57,637 nt of DNA, taken from the IMG/VR virus record IMGVR_UViG_3300030110_000139, positions 1 to 57,637 of that record, one strand, 5' to 3'. A program made the position numbers and the translations under genes. The notes under the pieces were generated by a model. The model was not told the origin of the DNA, made no database searches, and worked only from the letters and a program-made list of their open reading frames with translations. This DNA is from a virus. This document shows, piece by piece, positions 11,673 to 20,506 of this stretch. Every line of letters begins with the position of its first letter. Position 1 is the first letter of the stretch.

Positions 11673-12860
11673 TTATAAGTCAAATAATTTTAATTGTGGT
11701 TTAACATTTTTAATTCTTGCTTTGGCAATTTCATAATATTCGCTCTCTTTTTCTATTCCTATAAAGCTAAAATCTTCTTCTCTTGCACCCATACCTGTTG
11801 ACCCACTACCCATAAACGGATCAAGCACCACGCCTCCTTTTGGCGTTACCAAGCGAACAAGGTATCGCATCAGCTCAACAGGTTTAACTGTTGGGTGGGT
11901 GTTCGCCTTTATATCACCACCTAAACCAAACTTACGCTCATCTTTTGATGTCTTTGCACAATAAAAATACCTAGACGCATTACCCTGGTCTCCATATGCT
12001 GGCATAAATTGTTCGGTATCAGCAAGCTGACCAGCAGTCCAAATGCCCTTGTGTGTTCGCTCTCTGCTGACCTCCGTGCTGGAAGTTTCAGGAAATATTT
12101 CTTGTATTTGTTCGCTTCCATCGTGCATCACATTGCTTGGCCAACGACCTGTTTGATTATCAACTAAATCCGAATCCGATAGTTGTTTACGCTTGGCGTT
12201 AGATGTCTGACCGAATGATAGCTTGTCCACACCGATTGCAGCCTTACTTTGTTCGCCTTGATCACGGAAGTCTGGCATCGTATTTGGATGTTTGACCTCA
12301 CCCTCAATCCGACAAGCGTCAATGTTTATAGCACCAGTACCGAACTTGTCCATGTTGTCTGCTACCGACTTCTCCGACAAAGGCTTTCTTGCTAATACCA
12401 TTGGTTCATGTGCTGGTTTAAGAGCTGTACCCCAACCATTACCAATGTTATGGCTTTTGGGAAAACCACTACCATAAAGCCAAATACATTGATCACGGAT
12501 TTCAAATCCAGCATCTTCGATAGCAACTGCCATTCTGTGATATGTCCTAGAGCCACTAAACGCAATCATATGACCACCAGGTTTAAGAAGTTCATAACAT
12601 TTACGCCAAGTTTCTACTTGAAACGCTATGTCGCCACCATCCCACTCTTTGCCCATGAAGCCTTTGCTAGACCGAACAAACACGCCATCAGTCCCATGTT
12701 TTGCTGGTGCTGCATCTTCTTTACCGAACCTTTTAACTATTGATGTTAGATGGTACGGCGGATCTGTGACTATACTATCCACCGAACATTTCTCTATTTT
12801 GTCCATGACCTCTAAACAGTCGCCATGATAAACTGTGCTTCCCTCTACAATAATCTCCAT
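11673..12860 (-). CDS. DNA N4-cytosine/N6-adenine methyltransferase
   Basis: 395 residues. Transfers methyl groups from S-adenosylmethionine to an exocyclic amine of DNA. Catalytic TDPPY is near 36-40, before the AdoMet motif DPFMGSGSTGMGA near 346-358, the order of the beta class. Other family blocks: FMGKEWDGG, GRWPSNVMHDG, HPTVKPVELMRYLV. The central segment (about 150-310) is the variable target-recognition part. No partner restriction gene, so an orphan phage methylase, probably for self-protection. Adjacent to the transglycosylase gene at 12862. Confidence 0.93.
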   Translation of the reverse strand: MEIIVEGSTVYHGDCLEVMDKIEKCSVDSIVTDPPYHLTSIVKRFGKEDAAPAKHGTDGVFVRSSKGFMGKEWDGGDIAFQVETWRKCYELLKPGGHMIAFSGSRTYHRMAVAIEDAGFEIRDQCIWLYGSGFPKSHNIGNGWGTALKPAHEPMVLARKPLSEKSVADNMDKFGTGAINIDACRIEGEVKHPNTMPDFRDQGEQSKAAIGVDKLSFGQTSNAKRKQLSDSDLVDNQTGRWPSNVMHDGSEQIQEIFPETSSTEVSRERTHKGIWTAGQLADTEQFMPAYGDQGNASRYFYCAKTSKDERKFGLGGDIKANTHPTVKPVELMRYLVRLVTPKGGVVLDPFMGSGSTGMGAREEDFSFIGIEKESEYYEIAKARIKNVKPQLKLFDL

Positions 12861-12861
12861 A

Positions 12862-13548
12862 TTACCTCTCTAATAAACTTAATTGTTTTGTTTGTTTTTG
12901 TGTCCAACCTATTGGACATTGTATTGAATCTATTTCTCTTGCCATTTTTTCAGGACACCTATTGCTAGTCTTGTAATTCCTTGCAACATTAACAGAATCA
13001 GCAGAAGCAAACGGATAATGTTTACCAGACATATTCAGTCCTCTTAACATATGTATCCACGGCATAGTTTTAAATTTTTTATCTAGCTCATTAAATGCTT
13101 CATTAACTCGTTGTTCCCATGATGCAGAACCCACTTGCCAATACTCACCACTACTTCCAAAACAAACTTTGGGATATTCATTACATAAGTCAATTAAGTA
13201 ATCTAAACTTAAATGTAAGTGCCAAACAGGAACGCCATAACATTTAGAGTACGGCCACGTTTGTAAAAATTCTTTGTTTTCTTTCTCATCTCCACCAATT
13301 ATATCGGGTATAACTGCCCAATGTGGGTGTCCAAGCTTATCATCAAGCCAATTGTAATAAGCCTGGTGATTAAAAGTCTTCCCACTTGTAAATGTTGTAA
13401 AAGCACCATTATCCCACATTACGCTTTGACCTATTTGCAGACATATTTCAGCGTTTCTTGGATCAGCAAAGGAAACACAAAAGTGTTTCCCAGCCATTTT
13501 ATAAAGGTTCTCTTTAGGTGTAAGAGGTGTTCCATGATAATGTATCAT
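12862..13548 (-). CDS. dpdA-like: DpdA-like / tRNA-guanine-transglycosylase-type protein
   Basis: 228 residues. Pattern of phage TGT-superfamily proteins linked to 7-deazaguanine DNA: HYHGTPLTP at 3-11, KHFCVSFADP at 21-30, WDNGAF at 45-50 (place of the TGT Asp-Ser-Gly-Gly active-site loop), PDIIGGD at 81-87, VPVWHLH at 106-112, VCFGSSGEY at 128-136 and a C-terminal HMLRGLNM. Expected reaction: exchange of guanine in DNA for a deazaguanine base. It overlaps the next upstream gene by ATGA; that operon also encodes a VUT/YhhQ-type transporter. Assignment is from motif memory, without a search. Confidence 0.65.
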   Translation of the reverse strand: MIHYHGTPLTPKENLYKMAGKHFCVSFADPRNAEICLQIGQSVMWDNGAFTTFTSGKTFNHQAYYNWLDDKLGHPHWAVIPDIIGGDEKENKEFLQTWPYSKCYGVPVWHLHLSLDYLIDLCNEYPKVCFGSSGEYWQVGSASWEQRVNEAFNELDKKFKTMPWIHMLRGLNMSGKHYPFASADSVNVARNYKTSNRCPEKMAREIDSIQCPIGWTQKQTKQLSLLER

Positions 13549-13781
13549 GTGCTTACAATCTTAACCCCAGAGTGTTCGCCTACGATGGTCACTCTGCCAA
13601 ACATTTCTGACAACATTTTACTTAGTTGTTCTTGCAGATATCTTTTTTCATAAATCTCTTTTTGAAATTGTATAAATTTTTCAACATCTACTTGTTCGTT
13701 TGATTCAACAGTAACATCATATATGTTGACCATGCCATCATATGGACAACGACAAACTAATTTAAACTGATAGTTGTTCAT
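13545..13781 (-). CDS. Small conserved protein in the deazaguanine operon
   Basis: 78 residues with LVCRCPYDGMVNIYDVTV at about 8-25 and VGEHSGVKIVST at the C-terminus; the middle is helical. It lies exactly between the transglycosylase-like gene (ATGA overlap) and the transporter (20-nt overlap). I recognise the 'CP-DG ... HSGV' style from small phage proteins of unknown function but cannot name it. Perhaps an accessory of the base-exchange enzyme. Confidence 0.65.
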   Translation of the reverse strand: MNNYQFKLVCRCPYDGMVNIYDVTVESNEQVDVEKFIQFQKEIYEKRYLQEQLSKMLSEMFGRVTIVGEHSGVKIVST

Positions 13782-14253
13782 CTTTGTTTCTCAAGTAAAA
13801 ATAAATAGCTAATGCTGCCAACATTTTACTAACGAACATTGTGATACAAGCAAGCAAGCTAAACTGACCTATCATCAACAAGAAAACTGCACTATCAACT
13901 GGCGTTGATGCTAATGAACTTATTAAGATTCTTTCATGTAAAGGCTTACCAGTAAACGTGTAAACACCCCAATCTGTAAGTTCGCTTATCATAAACGCTA
14001 CAAATGAAGCTACTGCGATGAACGGATTAGCCATAACATAACTCAAGACTGCCCCAATAACCATAGCTCCAATAACTTTATGACCTATCTCCCTTTGTGC
14101 ATAATCTCGTAGTATAAATATAATACCAACAATAATGCTCATTGGTGGATACATGGTGTCATAAAATGGTATTAATGGGACGTAAACGAATCCCACATTG
14201 ATTAATACAACCGATAAAATATATGCGATTGTAAATTTATATTGATTTAACAT
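13762..14253 (-). CDS. VUT family membrane protein, YhhQ-like (preQ0 / queuosine-precursor transporter)
   Basis: 163 residues with about five or six membrane spans. Family blocks: ILRDYAQREIGHKV at about 48-61, SYVMANPFIAVASFVAFMISELTDW near 71-95, and ERILISSLASTPVDSAVFL near 107-125. VUT/YhhQ proteins of bacteria take up 7-cyano-7-deazaguanine or related queuosine precursors. AAGGAG precedes the ATG at 14253. Being next to a transglycosylase-like gene, it probably supplies imported base to that enzyme. The first span is included, so the protein looks complete. Confidence 0.8.
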   Translation of the reverse strand: MLNQYKFTIAYILSVVLINVGFVYVPLIPFYDTMYPPMSIIVGIIFILRDYAQREIGHKVIGAMVIGAVLSYVMANPFIAVASFVAFMISELTDWGVYTFTGKPLHERILISSLASTPVDSAVFLLMIGQFSLLACITMFVSKMLAALAIYFYLRNKDEQLSV

Positions 14254-14572
14254 AATTTGCTCCTTCTGTTAAGTTTCTATACTCTATGTTAATCCCCAAA
14301 TTTTTCGCTACTTCCATACCCATTTCCATGCCTTTTGATATACCTTTATCTGTATAGACTGCCATCAAATCTGCGTGACGATACCATTGAAACGCTCTTG
14401 ACATACCCATACCTCTAAGTTCAGGAATTCTGTCATCAAGCACTTGTGTATAAAGAAGATGCGAGGCAAAAGGGGCTTCGCCTCGCAAGAGAGAATCGCT
14501 CATACACTTTTGTGCATATGCGACATTACTTTTAACATCACCCATATAGGGTGATTCTATTATAACTAACAT
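14237..14572 (-). CDS. DUF7768-type, nucleoside-deoxyribosyltransferase-like protein
   Basis: 111 residues from ATG at 14572 (MLVIIESPYMGDV), which overlaps the upstream stop as TAATG. Blocks: SPYMGDVKSNVAYAQ, LLRGEAPFASHLLYTQVLDD, WYRHADLMAVYTDKGISKGM. This is the pattern of small phage proteins related to nucleoside 2-deoxyribosyltransferases. Such a fold could handle N-glycosidic bonds and would fit base-salvage or base-modification next to the transporter and transglycosylase-like genes; the actual reaction is unknown. Confidence 0.7.
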   Translation of the reverse strand: MLVIIESPYMGDVKSNVAYAQKCMSDSLLRGEAPFASHLLYTQVLDDRIPELRGMGMSRAFQWYRHADLMAVYTDKGISKGMEMGMEVAKNLGINIEYRNLTEGANYVKSI

Positions 14573-16635: not shown

Positions 16636-16913
16636 GGCATATCATCAATAATACTTGAAGTATTAACATGAGTTGGGTTTCTTCGAACTCTACCAACATC
16701 ATTTTCTTTTAATGCTCTAGGATCATCTTCAAAGAAAGCTTCTTCTTCAACATAAACTGATGGCTTTAAACCATTCAAGTCTACTTTTTTTGGAGAAAAC
16801 TTATTAGCATCTGCTGCTTCACATTTATCGCATAATGGTTTTCTTTTATTTTTAACTTTATGTGCGAGTATTAATCTAGGACAAGCAGAACATCTTTCAT
16901 ACTTTGCTATCAT
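16632..16913 (-). CDS. Zinc-ribbon protein, 93 residues
   Basis: N-terminal C4 site: CSAC at about 8-11 and CDKC near 28-31, the remainder acidic (VYVEEEAFFEDDPRALKEND). It overlaps the end of the methylase gene by 17 nt and so is co-transcribed with replication and methylation genes. Small phage zinc ribbons often regulate transcription; here this is inference. Confidence 0.7.
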   Translation of the reverse strand: MIAKYERCSACPRLILAHKVKNKRKPLCDKCEAADANKFSPKKVDLNGLKPSVYVEEEAFFEDDPRALKENDVGRVRRNPTHVNTSSIIDDMP

Positions 16914-18342
16914 TATCTGCTTCCTTTATAGCATAAAATATTCGAGCTACCACTTGAGGCACGATGCTATTCCCTAAACATCTAAGTCGGTGTACCCTGT
17001 TGGATACCCCATGAGCCACTCTACCCACGTTGGGTTCAACGTCCCAGGTGATTGGTCTCTCACGGAAGGGTGGTTGCCTAACATCTTTTGCATCTTTCCA
17101 CCCGGTCTGCCCGCCGCATCTTCGTTTGCTGATGGTGTAGGGAACATCTCCTTTTTCTTGTTCTCCCAATAAACTTTTCTTGGCAGACTCATTCTTTGAC
17201 GATTCTCCTTCCAATTTTCCATGTTGCCCGAGTCCTTGTAATCCCTTGCTGTTGGTGTTGGAAACATCTCTCTCTTGGGATAATTCCATTTCTCCATTCT
17301 TGGTGGTCTGAGAGTGCAACCTAGCATCTGCTCTGCTTGTTGTTCGGTCATCTCCCCCGCCTCTACCTTCTTTCTGAAGATCATAGTCTGACCCATTGAT
17401 GCGTGTCCGTACCCCTTTGTTGTCGGTGTCGGCCACATTATCTCTTCCCTTACTCTTGGTGTTGGAAACATCTTCACTTCGTCCACTAATGTTATTGCAC
17501 TTGAGCCGTCTTTCTTCACTTTCTCGTAAAGCTCCTTGCTCTTCGGACCTTGCTTGGCATTCGCTGCTGTTGGTGTCCTCCACATCTTCACGCTGTCTGC
17601 TAAGTTCAGACTGTGACTGCTCTTCCCGTCTTTGCTCAACCTCCTGTTGTTCGGTGTCAACTCCACTTGTGGGTGCTCTATCTCCTGTGTTGTTGGTGTT
17701 GGCCATAAGGTCGAAGATGTCTGTTTGTACATATCCATTGTCTTGTTGTCCACTTGCTCCCTCAAGTTCGCTGGCTTTGTTCGTCCCTTGCGTTGACCCT
17801 CCATCAATTTGATTGTCCCCTCTTCTGAACGAGGTGGCAGATGATCCATTGTGTTCGGTGTGGCCCACAACCCAGCATCGCATTCGTCTATGTTTTGCAT
17901 CGACGGCTGCAGCTGGAATAAGATATGGGATGGCTTTGTATCCGATACTTTCCAGGTCAATGAGACTTCTTCTGAGGCCCATTGGCATTGTAACAAAGCC
18001 TGACACATTTTCGCCAATGACCCATTTAGGCCGTATGTCTTCAATAATCCTAACCATTTCGTGCCAGAGATCTCGGTCGTCTTCGCTTCCTCTCTGAGAG
18101 CCTGCGACACTCCAAGGTTGACATGGGAATCCTCCAACAACGATGTCTGCATCTTTGTATTCTTTTCCATTAAAACTCCTTATATCACTATATATTGGTA
18201 CATCGTGCCAATGTTTACGCAAGACTTTTTGACAATATTGATCTCTCTCAACAAAAGCTACTGTCTCAAAGCCACCTACTATTTGTTCTGCAGCATAACT
18301 AAATCCGCCTATGCCACTAAATAAATCTACTATCTTATACAT
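16897..18342 (-). CDS. dcm-like: DNA cytosine-5 methyltransferase
   Basis: 481 residues from ATG at 18342 (MYKIVDLFSGIGGF), preferred over 18372 because GAGAG lies before it and it overlaps the primase stop by 8 nt. Motif I DLFSGIGGF 6-14; motif IV GGFPCQPWS with catalytic Cys74; ENV 111-113; C-terminal RLRCLGNSIVPQVVARIF (motifs IX/X). The segment about 165-400 is hydrophilic and repetitive (VSNTNSKG, ADTDNKG, VEDTNSSE), more like linker than a target-recognition domain. The same DNA encodes a long ORF in another frame (16974-18170). Confidence 0.92.
   Translation of the reverse strand: MYKIVDLFSGIGGFSYAAEQIVGGFETVAFVERDQYCQKVLRKHWHDVPIYSDIRSFNGKEYKDADIVVGGFPCQPWSVAGSQRGSEDDRDLWHEMVRIIEDIRPKWVIGENVSGFVTMPMGLRRSLIDLESIGYKAIPYLIPAAAVDAKHRRMRCWVVGHTEHNGSSATSFRRGDNQIDGGSTQGTNKASELEGASGQQDNGYVQTDIFDLMANTNNTGDRAPTSGVDTEQQEVEQRREEQSQSELSRQREDVEDTNSSECQARSEEQGALRESEERRLKCNNISGRSEDVSNTKSKGRDNVADTDNKGVRTRINGSDYDLQKEGRGGGDDRTTSRADARLHSQTTKNGEMELSQERDVSNTNSKGLQGLGQHGKLEGESSKNESAKKSLLGEQEKGDVPYTISKRRCGGQTGWKDAKDVRQPPFRERPITWDVEPNVGRVAHGVSNRVHRLRCLGNSIVPQVVARIFYAIKEADNDSKV
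16974..18170 (-). CDS. 398-residue ORF nested out of frame in the C5-methylase gene
   Basis: Entirely inside the methylase gene in a different minus-strand frame. It starts MEKNTKMQTSLLEDSHVN; AAGGAG stands 5 nt before its ATG at 18170. It carries seven [LM][WF]xTP repeats (LWATPNT, LWPTPTT, MWRTPTA, MFPTPRV, MWPTPTT, MFPTPTA, MFPTPSA) and ends LNPTWVEWLMGYPTGYTDL. I know this ending and the TSLLEDS/PTPTARDYK pattern from proteins annotated beside or within phage C5 methylases. Each PTP repeat coincides with a hydrophilic TNSKG-type repeat of the methylase frame. Translation is plausible but unproven; function unknown. Confidence 0.55.
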   Translation of the reverse strand: MEKNTKMQTSLLEDSHVNLGVSQALREEAKTTEISGTKWLGLLKTYGLNGSLAKMCQALLQCQWASEEVSLTWKVSDTKPSHILFQLQPSMQNIDECDAGLWATPNTMDHLPPRSEEGTIKLMEGQRKGRTKPANLREQVDNKTMDMYKQTSSTLWPTPTTQEIEHPQVELTPNNRRLSKDGKSSHSLNLADSVKMWRTPTAANAKQGPKSKELYEKVKKDGSSAITLVDEVKMFPTPRVREEIMWPTPTTKGYGHASMGQTMIFRKKVEAGEMTEQQAEQMLGCTLRPPRMEKWNYPKREMFPTPTARDYKDSGNMENWKENRQRMSLPRKVYWENKKKEMFPTPSANEDAAGRPGGKMQKMLGNHPSVRDQSPGTLNPTWVEWLMGYPTGYTDLDV

Positions 18343-20506
18343 TGTCTCTCGCTGTAGTCGCCTCGTATTCACCTCTGCTCATTGCACCATCTATAGTGCC
18401 AAGCCATTTCCTACCACCACTTGTGCTAAATGAATACTTTGCAAGTCTACCCTCTTGTATAAGTTCTCTGACAAGACCATCAATCATTCTTTGTGTGCAA
18501 TTGTTTAATACTCGTGGTGCATCAGTATCAGCAGACATACGTTGCGTTATAGCATCTGCACCAGACTGTTGTGTCATAGCTCTGCCTTCTCTTTCACAAT
18601 CTGCAATCCAATTAAATAATGCGGTCTTTTTAATCTCTTTATTTGTACCACTATGCAGTCTTGAGATATCATCACTCTTATCAATCAATAAGCCACTATA
18701 TTCATCTCTAATAAAATGTCTTATGTTTCTGTTTGCAGGTCCATTAGACTTTACTACTGCACCATCAAAGCATTTGTTTCGTTTGTATTCTATTCCTAAA
18801 TCTTGACATCTTCTGCGTCCATTAGCCTCATCTACTTGCCATAATGCAAAAGCACAACGAACACCATCTACCAATGCAGACGTACCTCTAATCATATTTC
18901 TTGCTTGTTCAGGTGTATTTACAACTAAATCTTCTTTAACTTTAGTCATGTGGTGACACATAATAACAGACGCACCGGTTTCTGTAGCTATCTGTGCCAA
19001 TAGTCCAGTTAATGCTGCACCTGCTGCAGGGTCTGAGTTTACATCTGCATGAACAAATGAAGCTAACGGATCAAAGACAATTAGTTTTAAATTTTTCATC
19101 TGTAGTATTTGCTCATAAATTTTATCAAATTCATCGCTTGTTCTGTATCCATCATGTGTTTCTTGTAATATTGGAAATACACCACCAACATTAGGTAAAC
19201 TTACAATTCGTAACTCATGATCATATTCAATTCTACTGCCACTAGCATCAAGTCTTTCAATACGTCTGTGCATCTCTGCTTCGTCATCTTCTGCTGTAAA
19301 TATAATAGAATTACCAAACTCACTAATCATGCCACCAAAAGATTCTTGCATTGACTGACCACTTGATACTTTCATAGCTAAGTCAAGTGTCATCATGCCT
19401 TTACCACTATCACCTGCAGCAGAGAATATTATAGGCACTGCTAAAGGTAATGTGTTTGCTATCAAAAACTTTTGCTCTGGTGCTTGTCCTACAAATCTAT
19501 TAATGAGCATACTGTCATCAAGAAGATTAATATTCTTTTTAACTTGCTTTACATTGGTGTTAAGAAACTCGTTAATGTTAAATTGCTCTGCTATCGCATC
19601 AACAACATCCCATCTTTCAGGCTTACCTCTTGGTGGCGTTAATGTGGTTACTGATTTGACACCAGCGTTTAATGCAAGTTCTTGTACTAGCTCTGCAACT
19701 TTACGACCAGCTGTGTCATTATCTGGCCAAATCACAAGTTCTTTCTCATGTAATGGAGAAAAGTCAAATAAGTTTGCAGACTTTCTTGACAACATACCCG
19801 CACCACCCATAGTACAAGTTGTTGTATAACCTAAGTCATTTAAGGCATCTGCACACTTTTCACCCTCAACCCATATAATTTTTTCAGAGGCTATAATGTT
19901 TGGTATGTTGTATAGTGGGCGAACATCAGGCATACGAGGATAATTACTGCCACCTGTAAACTGTCTAAATTCTTTCTTTGGTTTGCCGTGTGAATCAAGT
20001 ATTGGATTTCCATCTTGATCTATATCGTTGTATCTTCTAACAAGACAAAGTAATTCACCTTGAGCATTTAAATATCTGTGTTCGCTATCATATGGTGTAT
20101 TAATGTTTATTTGTTTAGCTTCAGGTTTAATAATTGAACTTATGCTTTCTATTGGTTGTGGTGCTTCGTTATCCAAATATGAATCAAACAACTCTTTAAC
20201 TTCTGGTAACTTCATGTTTCTACCTTCCATCAAAATTTTAACGATACCACCCACTCCATCTGCACCATTAAAATCTTGCCCTTTCATAAAATAAGGAGAC
20301 CTTGGATTTATATCAATTTTTAAAGACTTTCCAGCTTCGCCATGTAACGAGCCTATTGTAAATTGATCTCCTCTAATTACACCTTGAGGATAGGTTTCTC
20401 TTAACATATCAATTTGTACACTCGCTGGGACTTTTTGACTTATCATTTCAACAAGTTCTTTGGAATCCATACTGCGTTTATTATTGCCAAATTTAATAAT
20501 GTTCAT
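18335..20506 (-). CDS. Primase-helicase (TOPRIM + RepA-like RecA-fold ATPase)
   Basis: 723 residues from ATG at 20506, chosen because AGGAG lies 6 nt before; an ATG at 20512 is too close. The N-terminal part resembles a primase zinc-less entry region; TOPRIM: IIWVEGEKCADAL (about 213-225) and ELVIWPDNDTAGRK (about 258-271). ATPase: Walker A AAGDSGKGM near 370, Walker B LKLIVFDPLASF near 478-489, VIMCHHMTK near 520. It primes and opens DNA at the fork. The phage lacks a recognisable DNA polymerase, so host polymerase III is probably recruited. Confidence 0.9.
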   Translation of the reverse strand: MNIIKFGNNKRSMDSKELVEMISQKVPASVQIDMLRETYPQGVIRGDQFTIGSLHGEAGKSLKIDINPRSPYFMKGQDFNGADGVGGIVKILMEGRNMKLPEVKELFDSYLDNEAPQPIESISSIIKPEAKQININTPYDSEHRYLNAQGELLCLVRRYNDIDQDGNPILDSHGKPKKEFRQFTGGSNYPRMPDVRPLYNIPNIIASEKIIWVEGEKCADALNDLGYTTTCTMGGAGMLSRKSANLFDFSPLHEKELVIWPDNDTAGRKVAELVQELALNAGVKSVTTLTPPRGKPERWDVVDAIAEQFNINEFLNTNVKQVKKNINLLDDSMLINRFVGQAPEQKFLIANTLPLAVPIIFSAAGDSGKGMMTLDLAMKVSSGQSMQESFGGMISEFGNSIIFTAEDDEAEMHRRIERLDASGSRIEYDHELRIVSLPNVGGVFPILQETHDGYRTSDEFDKIYEQILQMKNLKLIVFDPLASFVHADVNSDPAAGAALTGLLAQIATETGASVIMCHHMTKVKEDLVVNTPEQARNMIRGTSALVDGVRCAFALWQVDEANGRRRCQDLGIEYKRNKCFDGAVVKSNGPANRNIRHFIRDEYSGLLIDKSDDISRLHSGTNKEIKKTALFNWIADCEREGRAMTQQSGADAITQRMSADTDAPRVLNNCTQRMIDGLVRELIQEGRLAKYSFSTSGGRKWLGTIDGAMSRGEYEATTARDNV

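Follow-up and report, generated by a model that had tools for sequence, protein, structure and literature searches.

The closest described systems are the 'group 3' DpdA-only phages, which encode a DpdA and no genes of preQ0 synthesis (PMC6884629). Among them, Pantoea phage MED16 and Salmonella phage 7-11 contain the 7-deazaguanine dADG, measured in their DNA by mass spectrometry, at about 0.13% of G in MED16 (PMC8306585) and 0.02% in 7-11 (PMC6884629). A 2019 study already considered that a phage might pair DpdA with a YhhQ-type transporter and lack the genes of preQ0 synthesis (PMC6884629). This kind of system, DpdA with a transporter, is already known; in the 2019 work, YhhQ homologues correlated with no phage group (Hutinet et al., 2019; PMC6884629). 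Seuratvirus/EC151-type preQ0 clusters carry a transporter beside a DpdA and add FolE, QueD, QueE, and QueC (PMC8310023). In Streptococcus phage Dp-1, in which dPreQ1 was measured (PMC6884629), the DpdA gene shares an overlap with a transporter gene annotated as QueT, and the phage also has a QueF homologue.

The sequence analyzed here (the window) is a single linear IMG/VR virus contig of 57,637 nucleotides (IMGVR_UViG_3300030110_000139), beyond the ends of which further phage sequence is possible. Its gene families include terminase, SU10-type portal and adaptor, capsid, holin, and lysozyme. Five minus-strand ORFs, running from 14572 to 11673, abut or overlap one another. These and a further methylase gene are as follows:

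14237..14572, minus strand: DUF7768 protein, nucleoside deoxyribosyltransferase-like (PF24963, E=5.5e-31)
13762..14253, minus strand: vut, YhhQ/QPTR-like (COG1738/PF02592) transporter, 163 aa (Vut_1, TIGR00697, adjacency to dpdA)
13545..13781, minus strand: small QueF-related T-fold protein, 78 aa (AF2 model, Foldseek, profile against PDB, PHROG 37496)
12862..13548, minus strand: dpdA, short 'singleton' DpdA family, 228 aa (PHROG 887, DpdA profile)
11673..12860, minus strand: N4/N6 DNA methyltransferase, directly after dpdA (PF01555, E=2.9e-36)
16897-18372: C5 methylase

The four overlapping genes of the preliminary description are real ORFs, with overlaps of 17 nt (DUF7768/vut), 20 nt (vut/small), and 4 nt (small/dpdA); the N4/N6 methylase begins 1 nt past dpdA. 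As also stated there, FolE, QueD, QueE, and QueC were not found among the gene-sized ORFs of the window, either with Pfam (E<=1e-4) or with phage-derived profiles.

In our judgement, vut, the small gene, and dpdA probably form a mobile import-and-modify cassette combining precursor import, exchange into DNA, and T-fold tailoring. We infer all its functions, both transport and chemistry, from sequence. The YhhQ/QPTR-like Vut, located in the host membrane, would import a 7-deazaguanine precursor, most likely preQ0. By homology to the enzymes of 7-deazaguanine phages, DpdA would then swap guanines of the phage DNA for the imported base. In the last and least certain step, Cys12 of the small protein may attack the preQ0 nitrile, more likely once the base is in DNA; the tailored base would probably be dG+ (archaeosine), dADG and dPreQ1 being the alternatives.

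The window shares with the DpdA-only phages the short DpdA family and the lack of preQ0 synthesis genes, and host-made or imported precursor is possible in both. It differs from 7-11 and MED16 in two genes, vut and the small gene, neither of which was found in those two genomes; that they nevertheless carry dADG speaks against the cassette reading. The transporter belongs to the same phage family as that of the Seuratvirus/EC151-type clusters, except that import here appears to replace synthesis. Dp-1 has the full synthesis pathway, a full-length QueF, and a transporter of another name and family (QueT, ECF type). The earlier interpretation of import feeding DpdA is right in outline, and the genomic data support it strongly; its DUF7768 component did not stand, and the import idea itself dates from 2019. 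Within a literature comparison that is incomplete, the exchange of queD-queE-queC for the transporter, the near-obligate linkage of vut and dpdA, the family of miniature QueF-related proteins, and a vut-queC-dpdA version of the locus appear to be new.

DpdA and the transporter linked to it

The 228-aa protein is assigned by its sequence to the short 'singleton' DpdA family. It matched PHROG 887 'queuine tRNA-ribosyltransferase' with E=2.2e-44, and a profile built from 24 environmental relatives retrieved the DpdAs of MED16 (143 bits) and 7-11 (122.5 bits). With a broader DpdA profile, EC151 DpdA1 scored 29.7 bits, compared to <=4.8 bits for 2000 shuffled copies. These matches support the DpdA membership proposed earlier. 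Asp46 (motif DNGAF) and Asp184 (ADS) were invariant in 21 aligned DpdAs, including those of EC151 and MED16, and are candidate catalytic residues; we take them, by motif only, to be the counterparts of Asp102 and Asp280 of TGT (Z. mobilis numbering). Extensive modification is not assured, because the dADG levels in MED16 and 7-11 are so low.

Searches of PDB and Pfam with the DpdA sequence gave no TGT match, and hhalign of the single E. coli TGT sequence against the DpdA profile was not significant (0.5%). The AF2 model (pLDDT 67) was too weak to be used for recognition of a TGT fold; Foldseek with this model returned weak, mostly barrel-type matches, none of them a TGT. Homology of DpdA to TGT and the naming of the transporter family for queuosine salvage are consistent with a set acting on tRNA, in which a reduced TGT would salvage queuosine precursors for host or phage tRNA during infection. 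We regard this as very unlikely: the DpdA profile takes in enzymes from phages in whose DNA 7-deazaguanine was measured, the cassette sits in phages with DNA methylases, QueA and QueG genes are lacking, and the CxCxxC zinc-site motif of TGT is absent from the 228-aa sequence.

The window vut scored 27.2 bits with Vut_1, exactly at the cut-off (27.2), and 25.7 bits with TIGR00697 'queuosine precursor transporter', under the cut-off of 50.95; all 16 aligned vut relatives likewise matched TIGR00697. No significant match was obtained by hhalign of the single E. coli YhhQ sequence against the vut profile. These scores, at or below the curated cut-offs, count against the reading; we propose Vut as the importer of a 7-deazaguanine precursor on genomic evidence, its linkage to dpdA and the exchange described below.

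Among 84 distinct IMG/VR contigs retrieved with DpdA, vut adjoined dpdA in 80, in several gene orders: vut-dpdA (27), dpdA-vut (26), vut-small-dpdA (19), dpdA-vut-small (4), another small gene in between (2), dpdA-small-vut (1), and vut-queC-dpdA (1). The remaining four contigs contained small-dpdA (three) or queD-queE-queC-dpdA (one). In the reverse search with vut, dpdA was adjacent in 76 of 80 contigs, and at least two of the other four end close to vut; the two contig sets overlap, and not all contigs are independent. A tree of 108 DpdAs, in which sequences sharing a state were collapsed at 92% identity, showed only 7 changes in the presence of vut but 14 in its order or presence. No transporter was found beside DpdAs outside the clade of the window (MED16, 7-11, several prophage DpdAs). 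The linkage of vut and dpdA is near-obligate in the window clade, in contrast to the 2019 study, in which YhhQ homologues showed no correlation with any phage group.

Small-dpdA or dpdA-vut pairs also occur in phages that can be cultured: Microcystis phage Mae-JY30, Pseudanabaena phage Pam5, and Rhizobium phages RHph_X2_30 and RHph_N3_2. Two further arrangements were recorded. In the Rhizobium and Aminobacter phages RHEph05, RHph_X3_2, and Erebus (L037, L038, and L040), a vut-family transporter lies among replication genes, with no dpdA near it. In Caulobacter phage DMCA (L042:5705-6001), a short QueD-like gene of 98 aa overlaps the start of dpdA.

Exchange of synthesis genes for the transporter and mobility of the block

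Contigs L004 and L006 represent the same kind of phage, with colinear flanks 85% identical at the nucleotide level. Their agreement runs to L004:6328 and L006:7278 and resumes from dpdA (8001) at 88.8% identity. Upstream of dpdA, L004 carries queD (PTPS, 3.2e-18), queE (radical SAM), and queC (1.7e-44), whereas L006 carries vut and the small gene. This exchange is the best evidence for precursor import: in a natural experiment, synthesis genes stand at the very position of the importer in a close relative. Together with the reciprocal adjacency of vut and dpdA, it argues for the reliance on precursor supply over synthesis that had been claimed for this phage. The remark in the literature that DpdA-only phages might import their precursor thereby becomes a directly testable module.

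Alternatively, preQ0 made by the host could feed the phage, with DpdA and the small protein as the core of the system and Vut as a secondary booster or a carrier of other cargo that matters only in salvaging hosts. Small-dpdA pairs without vut are common in genomes of Pseudomonas, which makes its own preQ0. In addition, Seuratvirus-type phages have a full synthesis pathway plus a transporter (PMC8310023), and the hosts of DpdA-only phages mostly have genes for Q synthesis (PMC6884629). Against this stand the near-perfect reciprocal linkage of vut and dpdA and the exchange with queD-queE-queC, which point to a need for supply through Vut in this clade, and we consider feeding by the host unlikely here.

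Sequence comparison also shows transfer of the block. The window and L006 are 76% identical over 1402 bases of vut-small-dpdA; beyond it, their DNA likeness is limited to about 320 bases that match weakly, at 65%. The near-total lack of likeness outside the block indicates that it moved between unrelated phages.

The vut-queC-dpdA version was found in five contigs, L052 (4942-6687), L178, L183, L184, and L187. The presence of QueC without QueD and QueE suggests that its substrate, 7-carboxy-7-deazaguanine (CDG), is imported or supplied by the host in these phages, and the arrangement would fit CDG import at least as well as preQ0 import. We know of no case of CDG transport by the vut/QPTR family. 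Extended to the whole clade, this reading would have Vut import another precursor, for instance CDG, preQ1, or queuine, from which the product of the intervening gene (queC in the five contigs, the small gene elsewhere) would make the substrate of DpdA. A lone QueC makes sense only with CDG available, queC and the small gene were never found together at the loci surveyed, and QPTR members vary in substrate (PMC11130926). However, in about half of the vut-dpdA pairs the two genes are direct neighbors, which indicates no general need for a converting enzyme; we rate such a scheme for the clade as quite unlikely and retain preQ0 as the most likely cargo.

A different operon, queC-dpdA-queF-queD-queE-folE, was observed at L236:4998-8265; its dpdA is divergent, and the QueF (116 aa) directly follows dpdA.

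The small T-fold protein

In the preliminary description the small protein was called undescribed. It indeed has no Pfam family and falls into PHROG 37496, of unknown function; its relationship can nevertheless be recognized. The AF2 model (pLDDT 90.5) has the strand-strand-helix-helix-strand-strand (E-E-H-H-E-E) order of a T-fold. Foldseek with this model against PDB placed 13 chains of QueF-Like archaeosine synthase (5jyx/5k0p) first, with E from 7e-4, followed by GTP cyclohydrolase I and QueF; in the viral library, the best named match was a predicted archaeosine synthase. QueF-Like was also the sole significant match of the sequence profile against PDB (4.5e-5; 5jyx E=2.1e-5). With hhalign, the profile gave 72.6% for the QueF set, 12% for FolE, and 0.4% for QueD; the QueF set includes a QueF-Like sequence, so that this result is not fully independent of the PDB match. 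A mini-FolE or mini-QueD was rejected on these values. A relationship to SelU was dropped (weak match, E=0.0023, with nothing else to back it). Matches to dTor repeats, returned by one search, were helical-repeat artefacts.

Cys12 aligned with Cys21 of QueF-Like, which forms a thioimide with preQ0 (PMC5485725). Cys12, Tyr21, Glu34, Glu51, and His70 were invariant in 28 relatives, and judging from the alignments, the family resembles QueF and QueF-Like in keeping the nucleophilic Cys and the substrate Glu. The general-acid Asp of QueF/QueF-Like (Cys+7) is not conserved: it is Asn19 in the window protein, Asp only in L025, L026, L094, and L099, and Ile or Val in others. The NADPH-binding motif ESKS...K, present in phage QueFs, is absent from the family alignment. 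Because of these two features, we did not assign the protein to QueF or QueF-Like; model and sequence together suggest a QueF-related T-fold protein and a probable nitrile-processing enzyme.

The P. calidifontis QueF-Like enzyme (5jyx/5k0p), which acts on preQ0 already in nucleic acid (PMC5485725), has the T-fold, the nucleophilic Cys, and the conserved Glu in common with the small protein, but is about 109 aa long, compared to about 78 aa, and the small protein lacks the conserved Cys+7 Asp and adds the invariant His70. The 'PreQ0 pathway QueF-like protein' of Cluster B mycobacteriophage Funsized is also encoded next to dpdA; it is, however, a recognizable QueF of 132 aa with an ESKS-type motif, and its gene has no adjacent transporter and is followed by queC.

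On the tree of 108 DpdAs, presence of the small gene toggled 23 times. In four pairs of phages, roughly 80-96% identical (L022/L023, L061/L057, L182/L189, and L191/L202), the members differ between vut and dpdA by a clean gap the size of this gene. Genomes of Pseudomonas and some Burkholderiales have the small gene immediately before a distant dpdA, in most cases overlapping it by 4 nt, with no vut there; in Microcystis phage Mae-JY30, it comes after dpdA. The toggling and the small-dpdA pairs without vut fit an optional tailoring function tied to dpdA and not to import. Since MED16 and 7-11 have no copy, the small protein is ruled out as the maker of their trace dADG and is not needed for it.

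The small protein could instead be a non-catalytic partner of DpdA, such as a precursor-binding or DNA-targeting subunit. Its tight translational coupling to dpdA and the poor conservation of the general-acid Asp of QueF agree with this, but many dpdA loci that look active do without the gene, which comes and goes as a unit, and the invariance of Cys12, Glu51, and His70 in the relatives would suggest catalysis. We find a non-catalytic role doubtful and prefer an enzymatic one. PHROG 37496, encoded next to dpdA in many phages and in genomes of Pseudomonas, can be named as a probable nitrile-processing T-fold enzyme. If the protein is active, few known enzymes that tailor DNA bases would be smaller. 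The gene has been gained and lost repeatedly, which suggests that phages change the type of modification to escape restriction.

More tentatively, and as a possibility that falls somewhat short of an even chance, many environmental phages may outsource the preQ0 pathway to a movable importer and a short DpdA. The 78-aa enzyme, a new T-fold subfamily distinct from QueF and QueF-Like, would be a plug-in that rewrites the nitrile of DNA-bound dPreQ0 and is swapped between near-identical phages for a quick change of modification, and the vut-queC-dpdA version would import CDG.

A protein of 81-86 aa with the motif GGLEPRFIIERxDG recurs directly beside dpdA or vut (L042:6723-6977, L035:9678-9938, L033:8512-8757, L106, and L108). 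It is unrelated to the T-fold protein; a GGLEPRF-type protein of 84 aa, encoded next to dpdA in some loci, was rejected as a homologue of the small protein.

Genes flanking the cassette

The DUF7768 protein, earlier counted as part of the set, is a neighbor of the cassette and not a component. Only L002 and L003, a near-identical contig and a 90%-identical relative of the window, have it at the cassette, and 376 phage records contain a member of its family.

The N4/N6 methylase is possibly co-transcribed with dpdA but lies outside the core cassette. That the two methylases provide layered protection against restriction, as was suggested, is a conjecture. At L145:4759-9739 (Pseudomonas maioricensis strain S25), small-dpdA precedes an N4/N6 methylase ORF and a C5 methylase in what is apparently a prophage; genes of these kinds also surround the window cassette. 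The C5 methylase ORF of the window includes a long, charged insert of low complexity, and an ORF of 398 aa (16974-18170) overlaps it in another frame.
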